Assembly (NCBI GenBank): GCA_005503335.1
Contig: SCMQ01000012.1
Span: forward strand, 1-64,000
DNA from: Comamonadaceae bacterium 2FH
GTDB lineage: Bacteria > Pseudomonadota > Gammaproteobacteria > Burkholderiales > Burkholderiaceae_C
Direction of reading: 5' to 3'
DNA: 64,000 nt
Shown here: positions 6,016 to 17,897 of the stretch, piece by piece
Layout of the letters: the number at the start of each line of letters is the position of its first letter
Position numbering within the stretch: position 1 is the first letter of the stretch
Notes under the pieces: generated by a model
What the model was told of the DNA's origin: nothing
The model's database searches: none
What the model saw: only the letters and a program-made list of their open reading frames with translations
Made by a program: the position numbers and the translations under genes

Positions 6016-6438
6016 TCAGGCGCGCCCGATGATGGAGGCGGTAGCCATCAACTCCTCGAGCAGGGCCAGCGAAACCTGGCCCGAGACGCTGTAGGGGTCG
6101 AGCTCGGCGCGCTCGGAGTACTTGAGCAGGATATTGGTGTTGATCTTGGTCATGTTGACCTGGCCCATGGTCCAGCCGCCGAAGCGCCGCTCGGAGATCT
6201 CCTCGTAGTGCAGCAGCACCACGTCCTTGTGGCGGGCGTCGCGCTGGATATGGCCGTACAGCTCGCTGATCGCCATGCGCCCGCCCTCGATGGCCTGCAG
6301 GAAGATGCCGCCGCCGTAGCAGAGGATGCCGGTGATGCCGCAGGTGGGGTTGAAGTGGCGCGACTGGTCCAGGATCTCCTCGATCACCTCGGGCCGGGGA
6401 TCGACGGCGCGGCTGGCGTAGAGCAGGCGTACCAACAT
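6016..6438 (-). CDS. BLUF-domain blue-light sensor protein
   Basis: A 140-residue stand-alone BLUF protein. BLUF domains bind FAD and sense blue light. The residues expected around the flavin are present: Tyr7 (LLYASRA), Asn30, Gln48 (FLQAIEG), and Trp89/Met91 (GGWTMGQ). There is no attached output domain, only about 45 extra residues after the core, so it presumably signals through a partner protein. Its ATG begins two bases after the folE stop codon and its ribosome site (GGAGGT) lies inside the end of folE, so the two genes are translationally coupled. Whether light and pterin synthesis are linked is unknown. Confidence 0.88.
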   Translation of the reverse strand: MLVRLLYASRAVDPRPEVIEEILDQSRHFNPTCGITGILCYGGGIFLQAIEGGRMAISELYGHIQRDARHKDVVLLHYEEISERRFGGWTMGQVNMTKINTNILLKYSERAELDPYSVSGQVSLALLEELMATASIIGRA

Positions 6439-6440
6439 GT

Positions 6441-7178
6441 TCAGGACCTCCGGGGGATGAGCGACAGGAACTCGCGGCGCAGGTTGGCGTCCTTGAGGAA
6501 CACGCCGCGCATCACCGAGTTGATCATCTTGCTGTCCATGTCCTTGACGCCGCGCCAGGCCATGCAGTAATGGCTGGCCTCCATGACGATGGCCAGGCCG
6601 TCGGGCTGGGTCTTGTCCTGGATCAGGTCGGCCAGCTGGATCACGGCCTCCTCCTGGATCTGGGGGCGGCCCATGACCCACTCGGCCAGGCGCGCGTACT
6701 TGGACAGGCCGATCACGTTGGTGTGCTCGTTGGGCATGACGCCGATCCAGATCTTGCCGATCACCGGGCAGAAATGGTGGCTGCAGGCGCTGCGCACCGT
6801 GATCGGGCCGACGATCATCAGCTCGTTCAGGTGCTCGGCGTTGGGGAACTCGGTCAGGCCGGGCACCTTGACATAGCGCCCCTTGAACACCTCGTTCAAG
6901 TACATCTTGGCGACCCGGCGCGCGGTGTCGCTGGTATTGTGGTCGCGCTCGGTGTCGATGACCAGGCTGTCGAGCACGCCCTGCATCTTCTGCGACACCT
7001 CGTCCAGCAGCCGCTCCAGCTCGCCGGGCTGGATGAATTCGGCGATGTTGTCGTTGGCGTGGTAGCGCTTGCGGGCCGCCTGGACGCGCTCGCGGATCTT
7101 CACGGAGACCGGCGTCCCTTCGTCGACCGGGCGTGCGGCATCGGCAGCAGTCATGGCTTGGGGGGCTTTCATTAACAT
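6441..7178 (-). CDS. folE: GTP cyclohydrolase I
   Basis: GTP cyclohydrolase I, type IA, converts GTP to 7,8-dihydroneopterin triphosphate, the first step of folate and pterin synthesis. The zinc and catalytic motifs are visible: SACSHHFCPV with its Cys and His pair, and MEASHYCMAWRGV with the second zinc cysteine. At 245 residues it has a longer N-terminus than the minimal enzyme. Three in-frame ATGs (7178, 7172, 7154) are possible starts and none has a strong ribosome site, so the first is kept only provisionally. The next enzyme of the pathway, a NudB-type hydrolase, is encoded at 9654-10124 on the same strand. A BLUF gene follows directly. Confidence 0.93.
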   Translation of the reverse strand: MLMKAPQAMTAADAARPVDEGTPVSVKIRERVQAARKRYHANDNIAEFIQPGELERLLDEVSQKMQGVLDSLVIDTERDHNTSDTARRVAKMYLNEVFKGRYVKVPGLTEFPNAEHLNELMIVGPITVRSACSHHFCPVIGKIWIGVMPNEHTNVIGLSKYARLAEWVMGRPQIQEEAVIQLADLIQDKTQPDGLAIVMEASHYCMAWRGVKDMDSKMINSVMRGVFLKDANLRREFLSLIPRRS

Positions 7179-7294: not shown

Positions 7295-8530
7295 TCAGTA
7301 GCGCTTGCCCGTGATGAACAGCGCCAGCCGCATCAGGCCCAGCGCCATGCGCTCGAGCAGGCGCTGGTAGAGCGGCCGGTTGGCGTACTCGCTGGCCGCC
7401 ACCGGCCGGCTGTCGTGGCGTATGGCGTGCATCAGGCGCTCGCGCAGCACGGCGGCAAAGTGTGCGTCCTGCACCACGACGTTGGCCTCGCGCGCCAGCA
7501 GCATGCTCAGGGGGTCGATGTTGGACGAGCCCACCGTGGCCCAGGGACGCTCGCCTTGCGCATCGATCACGGCGACCTTGGCGTGCAGGAAGCTGGCCGT
7601 GTACTCGTGGATCTCGACCCCCGCCGCCATCAGGGCGCCATAGACCGGGCGGGTGGCGTGGAACTGCATGAAGTACTCGTAGCGCCCCTGCAGCAGCAGG
7701 CGCACCTTCACGCCGCGCCGGGCCGCGTGGATCAGCGCCTTGCGCAGCTTGCGCCCGGGCACGAAATAGGCGTTGGCGATGATGATTTCCTGGCGCGCGC
7801 CGGCGATCGCCCGACGGTAGGCCTTCTCGATCTGGCTGCGGTGCAGCAGGTTGTCGCGCAGCAGCAGGCCGGCTTTGGCCACCCAGAGGTGGCCGCGCCC
7901 AGGCGCGGGCTCGGGGCCGGTCCAGGGCAGGTGCAGGCCACCGGCGCGGAACGAGCTGAAGGCCTGCGGGAAATTGTGCTGGCGCACGTTGCGCACCGCC
8001 TGGATGCGCCACCACAGCTGGGCCGTGGTCTCCTGGGCCTGCTGCACCAGGGCCCCGCTGGCGCGCACCGCGAAATCGAGCCGCGGCCGCGCCAGCTGGC
8101 CATGGTTGGGGTCGTGGTAGTCGTCCAGGATGTTGATGCCGCCGCAGAACGCCAGCCGCCCGTCGACTACGCAGAGCTTGCGGTGCAGGCGCCGCCAGCG
8201 GCTGGGAATCAGCAGGCCCAGCGCGCCCAGCGGCGAGTAGACGCGCCACTGCACGCCCGCGGCGTCGAAGCGCCGCTGCCAGCTCGGCGGCAGCGCCCCC
8301 GTGCCCACGCCGTCGACCACCAGCCACACGGTGACGCCGCGCCGCGCGGCGCGCTCCAGCGCCTCGGCCACCTCGGCGCCGACGCCGGTGCAGTCGAAGA
8401 TGTAGGTCTCCAGCCTGACCTCCGAGCGCGCCTGGTCGATCGCCGCGATCAAGGCCGGGAAGTACTCCTCTCCGCCCTGCAGCAGCTGGATCTGGTGGCC
8501 GTCGCGCAGCAGGGCGCCAGGGTTGCGCAT
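7295..8530 (-). CDS. clsB: cardiolipin synthase B (phospholipase D superfamily)
   Basis: This 411-residue protein has two PLD active-site motifs: HRKLCVVDGRLAFCGG near residue 116 and HAKVAVIDAQ...TVGSSN near residue 314. Together they form the two-His active site that joins phosphatidyl groups to make cardiolipin. The absence of N-terminal transmembrane helices, and the location next to an endonuclease/exonuclease/phosphatase-family gene as in E. coli ybhP-clsB(ybhO), favour ClsB over ClsA. The start ATG lies 11 bases from the end of a MITE-like element, which leaves little room for a ribosome site (only a weak GCAAGG). Acts at the inner membrane. Confidence 0.88.
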   Translation of the reverse strand: MRNPGALLRDGHQIQLLQGGEEYFPALIAAIDQARSEVRLETYIFDCTGVGAEVAEALERAARRGVTVWLVVDGVGTGALPPSWQRRFDAAGVQWRVYSPLGALGLLIPSRWRRLHRKLCVVDGRLAFCGGINILDDYHDPNHGQLARPRLDFAVRASGALVQQAQETTAQLWWRIQAVRNVRQHNFPQAFSSFRAGGLHLPWTGPEPAPGRGHLWVAKAGLLLRDNLLHRSQIEKAYRRAIAGARQEIIIANAYFVPGRKLRKALIHAARRGVKVRLLLQGRYEYFMQFHATRPVYGALMAAGVEIHEYTASFLHAKVAVIDAQGERPWATVGSSNIDPLSMLLAREANVVVQDAHFAAVLRERLMHAIRHDSRPVAASEYANRPLYQRLLERMALGLMRLALFITGKRY

Positions 8531-8541
8531 GCCTTGCGGCC

Positions 8542-8906
8542 CTAGGGCCTGTTAACACTGTTTTTGCCAGTGCGAACGTGGTTAAAAGCGTGCCAATCTA
8601 GGCGCGCGACGACGCCCAGGCTGGCCGCCTGGGCTAGGAGTGCAACAACGAGTGGCACGCTTTTAATCACGTTCCCTCCGGGTTGCGGCCAAAAAGGCCA
8701 TGCGCCGCGTTGCGAAACATCGCCGGGGTGCCGCCCGCAGCCGTTGGTCTGCGAAGCGAACCAGGCGAAGGGCGGCATTGGCGTTGCTGCGCTGTACAGC
8801 TTCGCGCACGGACGCTGCGCAACGCCCCCCGGCTGCGTTTCGCGCCTTGCGCATGGCCTTTTTGATCCGCAACGCATCTGGCAAAAACAGTGTGAACAGG
8901 CCCTAG
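8542..8906. mobile_element. MITE-like element with CTAG target duplications, nested inverted repeats
   Basis: This fills the whole 372-base gap between ybhP and clsB. Terminal inverted repeats of 25 bases (8546-8570 and 8878-8902, one mismatch, beginning GGCCTGTT) are flanked on both sides by CTAG (8542-8545, 8903-8906), a likely 4-bp target duplication. A CTAG duplication is characteristic of the IS5 subgroup of the IS5 family, which could have supplied the transposase. Inside are two more inverted repeats: 8574-8595 with 8653-8674 (22 bases, one mismatch), and 8682-8718 with 8837-8873 (about 80 percent matched). No transposase is encoded. The stop codon of ybhP is formed by the right-hand CTAG. 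Confidence 0.8.
8737..8823 (+). repeat. dispersed repeat module A, copy 1
   Basis: This segment, inside the MITE-like element, is about 90 percent identical to the reverse complement of 17787-17877. It contains GGTCTGCGAAGCGAACCAGG and, further on, GCTGCGCTGTACAGC. Two copies in unrelated intergenic positions, in opposite orientation, show that it is a dispersed repeat rather than a gene. It forms the loop of the element's second hairpin. Confidence 0.8.
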
Positions 8907-9643
8907 AGTTTGAACTCGGCGATCAGCGGCAGGTGGTCCGACATGCGGCCCCAGACCGGGCCGCGTGGCACATGCTGGGCCAGGGGCTTGAGGCCGCGCA
9001 CGTAGACGCGGTCGAGCGCCGCCAGCGGCAGGCGCGAGGGATAGGTCGGGCGCGGAGCGTCGTCGCCCTCGCGCAGGCCGACGCTGGCCATCATGCGCTG
9101 CACCTGCGTGCCCCAGTCGTTGAAGTCGCCGGCCACGACCAGCGGCGCCCTGGCCGGCACCTCGCGCGCCATGTAGCCATGCAACTGCTCGATCTGGCGC
9201 ACCCGGCTGGCAGGGATCAGCCCCAGGTGCACGACGATCACGTGCAGCCGCCGCGTCTGCACCTCGATCTCGACATGCAGCAGGCCGCGCTGCTCGAAGC
9301 GGTGGTCGGACATGTCCTCGTGCTGGTGCATCACCACCGGCCAGCGCGAGAGCAGCGCGTTGCCGTGCTCGCCGTGGCGGGTGAAGGCATTGGTGCGGTA
9401 GACCGACTCGTAGCCCTCGGGCGCCAGGAACTCGGCCTGCGGCAGCTCGGGCCAGTGCGCGAAGTAGCGCTCCTCGCGCCGGTGCAGCTTGCGCACCTCC
9501 TGCAGGCAGACCACGTCGGCGTCCAGCTGCTCGACCGCATGGCCCAGGTTGTGGATCTCCAGCCGTCGGCGCGGGCCTATGCCCTGCACACCCTTGTGGA
9601 TGTTGTAGGTCGCGATGCGGAGCTGGCGTGGCTGGGCGTTCAC
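8903..9643 (-). CDS. ybhP: endonuclease/exonuclease/phosphatase family protein (YbhP-like)
   Basis: A 246-residue EEP-fold metal-dependent phosphodiesterase. The motifs appear in order: ATYNIHKG near the start, CLQEVR, GNALLSRWP, VAGDFNDW and SDHLPLIAEF at the C-terminus (Asp-His pair). The superfamily cleaves phosphodiesters in nucleic acids, phosphoinositides or sphingolipids; the substrate here is unknown. Position beside clsB matches E. coli ybhP-ybhO and hints at a membrane-lipid role. The last codon and TAG stop abut the terminal repeat of the MITE-like element, which therefore inserted exactly at the gene's end. Confidence 0.85.
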   Translation of the reverse strand: MNAQPRQLRIATYNIHKGVQGIGPRRRLEIHNLGHAVEQLDADVVCLQEVRKLHRREERYFAHWPELPQAEFLAPEGYESVYRTNAFTRHGEHGNALLSRWPVVMHQHEDMSDHRFEQRGLLHVEIEVQTRRLHVIVVHLGLIPASRVRQIEQLHGYMAREVPARAPLVVAGDFNDWGTQVQRMMASVGLREGDDAPRPTYPSRLPLAALDRVYVRGLKPLAQHVPRGPVWGRMSDHLPLIAEFKL

Positions 9644-17714: not shown

Positions 17715-17897
17715 ATGCCCCCACGCTCATCACTTCGTGTATTCGCTGCCCCCCGAGGGGGCCCAGGCCTCCTTTGGGGCGGCGCTGTGCAGCGTCGTGC
17801 GCGCAGCTGTACAGCGCAGCAGCGCCATTGCCGCCCTTCGCCTGGTTCGCTTCGCAGACCAACGGCTCCGGGCGGCCCGGCAGGAGGCCTGAAATGA
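17715..17897 (+). other. 60-codon bridging frame inside a repeat insertion between potH and potI
   Basis: An open frame starts two bases after the potH stop, with an AAGGAG site at 17703-17708, and ends in a TGA whose last bases overlap the potI ATG (ATGA). Nearly all of it is repeat sequence also found at 51184-51255 and 8737-8823, so the predicted peptide (Pro/Arg/Gly-rich) is unlikely to have a function of its own. It may keep ribosomes moving into potI and so preserve coupling across the insertion. Confidence 0.55.
17718..17881. repeat. dispersed repeat (modules B and A) inserted between potH and potI
   Basis: The first half (17718-17785) matches 51184-51252, sharing CACTTCGTGT and the hairpin GCCCCCcgaGGGGGC. 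The second half (17787-17877) is the reverse complement of module A at 8737-8823. The insertion is flanked by near-identical AGGAGCCTGAAATG (17704-17717) and AGGAGGCCTGAAATG (17882-17896), as expected if it duplicated the original potH/potI junction. Confidence 0.78.

Follow-up and report, generated by a model that had tools for sequence, protein, structure and literature searches.

The window analyzed here is a 64,000-nt stretch of contig SCMQ01000012.1 from Comamonadaceae bacterium 2FH. In it, the genes called ybhP and clsB in an earlier sequence-only reading of the same DNA flank a folded repeat (Table 1), and positions 8542 to 8906 are one copy of a small mobile element that has no genes of its own. 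The outer arms of this copy (8542-8570 and 8878-8906) are 29 nt long and 97% complementary, with one mismatch, and CTAG is present at both outer edges. Removal of the CTAG from these arms leaves the 25-base terminal repeats with one mismatch that the sequence-only reading had described, and its CTAG on both outer sides is there in the sequence. The two internal inverted repeats that it had also seen correspond to the arms of P2, which are 22 nt long with one mismatch, and to the second hairpin, P3, which includes a perfect 16-nt core (8690-8705 and 8849-8864) plus a 30-nt stretch at 73%. As that reading had held, no transposase is apparent: the three internal open reading frames (111, 73, and 68 aa) had no Pfam matches at E ≤ 0.01.

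Table 1. Features of the ybhP-clsB junction and a related repeat in the window
Feature	Coordinates	Strand	Basis or description
Composite mobile element with flanking TA duplications	8543..8905	.	End repeats, genome copies, 152-locus target pattern
Left end, P1 5' arm	8545..8570	+	First ~16 bp match IS5-element ends
Right end, P1 3' arm	8878..8903	-	Inverted-repeat partner of left end
P2 stem-loop module	8574..8674	.	Arms 8574-8595 and 8653-8674, apical hairpin, conserved internal loops
P3 stem-loop module, broken by insert	8682..8873	.	Repeat search and covariation
98-bp insert within P3 loop	8729..8826	.	Two hairpins from a second interspersed repeat
Upstream gene, ybhP	8903..9643	-	246 aa, Exo_endo_phos domain; name from the sequence-only reading
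Downstream gene, clsB	7295..8530	-	411 aa, PLD-like domains; name from the sequence-only reading
TAG stop of ybhP, supplied by element edge	8903..8905	-	Reading-frame check
Insert-repeat copy elsewhere in window	17777-17876	-	One of six ~100-bp pieces

The reading frame of ybhP terminates in CTC TAG, in which the TA is that of the target duplication and the G is the element's first base, and clsB starts 12 nt past the TA at the opposite edge. The proposal that ybhP is left intact with its stop at the edge of the element therefore stands, but the stop does not lie inside a duplicated CTAG, as had been thought, since the duplication is TA and the G comes from the element. The minus-strand RNA of this copy has a predicted folding energy of -236.1 kcal/mol, compared with a shuffle mean of -151.5 (z = -14.4; 0 of 100 shuffles equal), and a consensus scan of positions 8300 to 9200 detected neither promoter- nor terminator-like sites.

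The window copy is longer than the ~270-bp unit of its relatives because 98 bp replace the small P3 loop. The same insert is present in two other copies in the genome (L002 and L003), and relatives show the unit without it. At six places in the genome, a ~100-bp piece of another interspersed repeat contains the same two hairpins as the insert, and a 47-bp core of that repeat was found at 12 more places among the matches listed. As L002 and L003 share the insert, the composite probably moved after forming. The window copy is thus a composite, and its fold and stop-codon position are traits of the whole family, which the sequence-only reading had overlooked.

A dispersed family and IS5-family elements with shared ends

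The further copies for which the sequence-only reading had suggested a search were found both in the same genome and across the host family. The genome gave 64 matches, some of which are self-matches in inverted orientation or fragments of a second repeat; inspection by eye resolved the matches into a second full-length copy (L002), a long partial copy (L003), and about eight shorter ones (~270 bp or truncated). Matches at E ≤ 0.001, some of them partial, are present in 98 of 299 host-family genomes, representing 64 of 141 genera. In a set of 100 relatives, 20 have a match, and a few of these belong to other families of the same order. One complete genome of a copy-rich genus has at least 12 element matches. 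Among named contigs, 105 stretches contain the motif GGAGTGCAACAACGAGTGGCG; the titles among the 80 matches listed are from Curvibacter, Hylemonella, Polaromonas, Hydrogenophaga, Ramlibacter, Caenimonas, and Rhodoferax, together with several MAGs that have higher-rank names only, one of them as Gammaproteobacteria. Hence, the element was neither confined to the same place nor without a copy elsewhere, the two outcomes that the sequence-only reading had set against mobility. Plasmid and phage collections contained zero element matches, and carriage by a plasmid or phage was rejected on that basis. In the literature searched, which included few subscription papers, no paper was recognized as describing the element.

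The unit is 268 to 273 bp long in 156 of 160 distinct near-full-length copies, a set drawn from 209 full-length profile hits with 70 partial hits excluded, and the constancy of length is valid for that class only; the three insert-bearing copies (window, L002, and L003) lie outside the set. As lengths of 269 bp (27 copies) and 271 bp (18 copies) are both frequent, a reading frame is seemingly not kept, and a self-contained open reading frame was rejected as an identity for the element. At one locus (L065; G000:C11:319947-320001), a 55-bp palindrome holds little beyond both element ends joined.

The insertion target was derived from 152 loci rendered independent by flank similarity (152 clusters from the 160 copies). 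Their pattern is Y-TA-GGG...CCC-TA-R, with Y before the left TA in 89% and R after the right TA in 87%; immediately inside the left TA, G is found in 98%, and beyond the right TA, G accounts for 55% and A for 32%. In two congeners, whose flanks are ~90 to 92% identical, the site is empty and has just one TA, which lies in the TAG that ends the right-hand gene. At a further empty site, the position agrees but the target letters differ, so that it does not show the duplication. Element-free sites are thus found in congeners, with a single TA in place of the single CTAG that the sequence-only reading had proposed to look for at ybhP-clsB. The 4-bp CTAG duplication, to which the CTAG flanking the window copy at either end had pointed, is highly improbable and was rejected in favor of TA within YTAR, as the left TAG is paired with TAA, TAC, or others on the right at many loci, the left inner G stays at 98% regardless of the right flank, and the empty sites carry one TA. 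The IS5 subgroup proper generates a 4-bp YTAR duplication, and the IS427-like subgroup has TA-type target duplications and GG-type ends; over the 152 loci, the element shows the latter traits and not the former.

An apparently complete IS5-family element of ~830 bp, with ends as in the repeat described here, lies at the TAG of a proC-like gene in a relative (L321:943-1774). Its transposase is split over two overlapping frames and belongs to family NF033580 (transpos_IS5_3), with DUF4096 and DDE_Tnp_1 parts; with the first of its reading frames as query, relatives were detected at E ≤ 1e-20 in 29 of the 299 genomes. At 16 of the 31 loci examined, the IS elements have paired ends 0.80 to 0.85 kb apart. 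The 31 readable IS ends all have AC at positions 11 and 12 and C at position 14, beyond the search pattern, with A (29 ends) or G (2 ends) at position 13, and their flanks have C or T in 30 and the final A in 29. These ~0.8-kb IS5-family elements with the same ends and target support the view of the repeat as an IS5-type MITE, and the full-length IS elements that the sequence-only reading had proposed to look for are thereby present in relatives (L321 and the 16 elements). The draft genome of the host itself contained no IS of the L321 type at E ≤ 1e-20, and inspection of 34 hits by eye revealed no such end pair at an IS-like distance.

The properties that characterize MITEs are present in the family: terminal inverted repeats (the 29-nt arms here, and a P1 that is 96.4% paired over 22 distant copies), a short unit (~270 bp) with Pfam-negative reading frames in place of a transposase gene, dispersed copies with a target duplication, and, in relatives, ends common to an autonomous element. 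The copies, the empty sites, and the IS ends of relatives thus uphold the earlier suggestion of a nonautonomous element with IS5-type ends, which was probably mobilized by an IS5-type transposase. In comparisons of three elements with three IS elements, the ends matched over 15 to 25 bp and otherwise nothing fell below an E value of 0.07; as the interior was unshared, origin by internal deletion of an IS was rejected. The IS-bearing genomes had element matches in 8 of 29 cases versus 98 of 299 overall, i.e., no co-occurrence above expectation, and DUF4096 was present in only 2 of 26 genomes of a copy-rich genus, L321 being one of the loci concerned. An IS630-type partner was also considered: DDE_3 was detected in 4 of 26 genomes of that genus, in 2 of them above the cutoff, and three of five loci were scanned, none of which had AGGGCCTGTT.

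A covarying fold of three stems

The structure was analyzed in an earlier set of 67 copies (7 of 74 omitted) and a later set of 147 (5 of 152 omitted). For 22 copies that are pairwise less than 80% identical, the consensus comprises 103 pairs with 91.8% of cells paired, and changes on both sides were found in 88 of these 103 pairs. Their covariation score was 0.604 versus 0.166 in shuffles, none of which (0 of 500) scored as high. Slid-structure controls had 36 to 44% of cells paired, in a comparison that favors the true structure, which was derived from the same 22 sequences. Across the 147 copies, 94% of the cells in the 90 best pairs are Watson-Crick.

The balance of changes depends on the distance between copies. 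Copies at least 95% alike have 245 one-sided versus 75 two-sided stem differences, whereas copies less than 80% alike have 56,352 one-sided versus 181,645 two-sided differences, 152,462 of the latter between two Watson-Crick pairs; these tallies count pairs of copies, which are nonindependent. Our reading is that individual copies may decay while the fold would be maintained in the lineages that propagate, with template switching as an alternative or additional cause.

A preference of the stems for one strand is weak or absent. Wobble cells in the 90 pairs and 147 copies number 204 for G-U versus 179 for A-C (P1, 40 and 45; P2, 101 and 80; P3, 63 and 54), and the choice of a strand from wobble pairs was rejected on these counts. 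The 67-copy set had given 236 G-U versus 119 A-C cells, with 108 from two mostly G-U consensus pairs. Comparisons between copies lean toward G-U on the plus strand, by 1.5- to 2.2-fold over 95 pairs and by 1.2- to 2.3-fold over the 90 best, and the folding energy of the minus strand was better in 76 of 147 copies, so that neither strand is the better folder.

Between the IS5-type ends, the interior consists of two stem-loop modules, P2 and P3, which sequence comparison suggests are probably inverted copies of one motif. When P2 was searched with a P3 profile, its reverse complement was hit in 146 of 147 copies, at a median of 7.7 bits; by comparison, the opposite strand gave hits in 7 of 147 copies and mononucleotide shuffles in 34 of 735, with no score exceeding 4.4 bits. 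The consensus-to-consensus score of P2 and P3 was 49 versus a shuffle mean of 33 and maximum of 52 and was not clear. In addition, the folds of several relatives (L024, L357 to L361, L367 to L369, and L375), judged by eye, have P2 alone or P3 alone inside the outer stem, and some of these single-module relatives have a different arm where P2 would be. Together with the resemblance of P2 and P3, the single-module relatives make the unit look like two inverted copies of one module. The P2 segment matched best on the opposite strand in 2 of 154 copies (L055 and L046).

Placement at gene junctions and proposed explanation

Genes beside the copies were called only where the codon model gave a confident frame (250 of 296 sides with a retrained model; 18 of 296 with the first model), and start distances were taken from in-frame ATG, GTG, or TTG codons, from which true starts may differ. 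Among genes that read toward an element, 64 of 122 stop in the edge TAG by the codon model, and 60 of 140 elements have at least one edge-stop side. For genes that read away, the first 5 nt of 121 sides contained 36 in-frame ATGs versus 2 per out-of-frame frame, a count made before related loci were removed. At junctions between co-directional genes, the element lies in one orientation at 47 loci and in the other at 14 (p = 2.7e-5 on the assumption of independent loci); two subsets gave 28:6 and 19:8. An edge stop is present in 28 of the 47 loci in the majority orientation and in 6 of the 14 in the minority, and a possible start codon lies within 8 nt of the other edge in 23 of 47 and 4 of 14, respectively. 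The window copy, which is outside this set, has the majority orientation. Either tolerance of insertions in one direction or insertion linked to transcription could produce the bias.

We propose, with a probability of about 0.8, that the element is a MITE that IS5-family transposases mobilize in trans, with duplication of TA at YTAR sites and with its fold kept mainly for propagation. In this proposal, a transposase of the NF033580 family would recognize the terminal GGGC(C/G)TGTT(A/C)ACACT and insert the element at the TA of YTAR, duplicating TA; the ends, target, and duplication are those observed above, and mobilization in trans is what we infer from them. Where the TA falls within a stop codon, the first G of the element restores TAG, as it does in the sequence of ybhP. 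The restored stop preserves the length of the upstream gene, so that even a tight operon junction can accommodate the element. At the ybhP-clsB junction, its likely effect is that of a structured 0.36-kb spacer separating two cistrons; an RNA-level influence on clsB, as the sequence-only reading envisaged, is a guess. Distant copies retain pairing and some loop bases, and the differences between recent copies are mostly one-sided. Several points stand against this explanation: the draft genome of the host gave no L321-type IS at E ≤ 1e-20; DUF4096 was present in only 2 of 26 genomes of a copy-rich genus; IS-bearing genomes are not enriched in element matches; some relatives have different ends, e.g., GAGCCTGTT or GAACGTGTT; the L321 transposase is split over two overlapping frames; and transposition alone does not account for the 47:14 orientation bias.

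The stop-codon position itself may well reflect survivorship only, an account that we somewhat favor: harmless YTAR sites in gene-dense DNA would often be stop codons. TAG and TAA both fit YTAR, other copies sit farther from genes, and an edge stop is likewise present at 4 of 16 IS5 copies, but the orientation bias is left unexplained by survivorship as well.

For the fold, the alternative with a real chance of being right, short of even odds, is that the covariation is mainly mutational, with template switching copying one arm onto the other, so that the pairing would say little about selection. Template switching between arms during replication is described in PMC8794818 and PMC8604942, and the excess of two-sided over one-sided changes in the 22 distant copies (515 versus 44 changed standard-pair cells, with ~8% of cells unpaired) is what such copying would give. 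The inverted P2 segment of L055 (89% over 101 nt on the opposite strand relative to the rest) is likewise what spacer inversion would yield. However, close copies show mostly one-sided changes, and template switching gives no reason for unpaired bases to be nearly invariant (identity is at least 95% in 21 of 80 unpaired columns, versus 36 of 190 paired columns); the latter objection is weak, since mean conservation is about equal (0.81 for unpaired and 0.82 for paired columns).

We regard as unlikely that the element is a host-useful RNA, i.e., a transcribed structure that processes, stabilizes, or insulates intercistronic mRNA and whose copies are retained for that purpose. The orientation bias, its recurrence in both subsets, and the more frequent edge stops and near starts in the majority orientation agree with such a role. 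However, G-U and A-C cells are nearly equal in number, and the 1.2- to 2.3-fold G-U lead is small for an RNA; the changes in close copies are mostly one-sided; insertion sites vary among genomes, as seen in the 152 clusters from 160 copies; and Rfam has no family for the element at the gathering score, where the search gave two weak subthreshold hits as well as two tRNAs elsewhere in the window. In the preferred explanation of a transposase-mobilized MITE, the fold would be kept chiefly by the needs of propagation; template switching between the arms would help, and benefit to the host at individual sites would count for less. More tentatively, and with considerable doubt, we hypothesize a modular folded transposon, with two inverted stem-loop copies in IS5-type ends, whose fold is recognized or needed for mobility and which is adapted to operon junctions, restoring the stop codon that its insertion disrupts and being tolerated largely in a single orientation with respect to transcription.

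Bacterial MITEs are often viewed as decayed IS ends. The family described here keeps a covarying fold of three stems and often sits on stop codons, with the genes not shortened; it thereby offers a testable case for selection on folding in transposition and for tolerance of mobile elements inside operons. IS5-type MITEs are a known kind of element, and what is new here is the stem covariation, the edge-stop habit, and the orientation in operons. The IS5-family elements (NF033580; L321 and relatives) resemble the family in the terminal ~16 bp, the YTAR target, the TA on both sides, and some copies at stop codons, but they carry a transposase, are ~0.8 kb long, and have an unshared interior in nine comparisons.

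RUP, Correia/NEMIS, and ERIC are described in PMC2229807 as likewise small and intergenic, with terminal inverted repeats, a terminal TA, and a folding transcript; RUP of Streptococcus pneumoniae has terminal inverted repeats common to an IS and is linked there to IS630. They are ~100 to 200 bp with long stem loops in that description, whereas the element here is ~270 bp and has three stems, whose covariation is seen across copies from about 20 genomes. The CIR repeats of Caulobacter and Brucella likewise have two linker-joined arms and a conserved structure; as portrayed in PMC2229807, they are without 5'-3' end pairing, and their means of mobility is called unclear. The beta-proteobacterial repeat BRE, according to its account in PMC3110155, is similarly found in Polaromonas, Delftia, Rhodoferax, and other Burkholderiales and is mostly intergenic and mobile-like, but it is ~90 bp long and sometimes tandem; we set it beside the P2 and P3 modules by description only. 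The MITEs of Polaromonas sp. JS666, cited in the review PMC10969869, may or may not be the same family, the likeness being the genus, which has core-motif hits. A Polaromonas contig (L244:6700-6975) carries a copy at a folE-BLUF-like junction (gene names by resemblance), and the same junction in the window, at positions 6430 to 6441, is element free.
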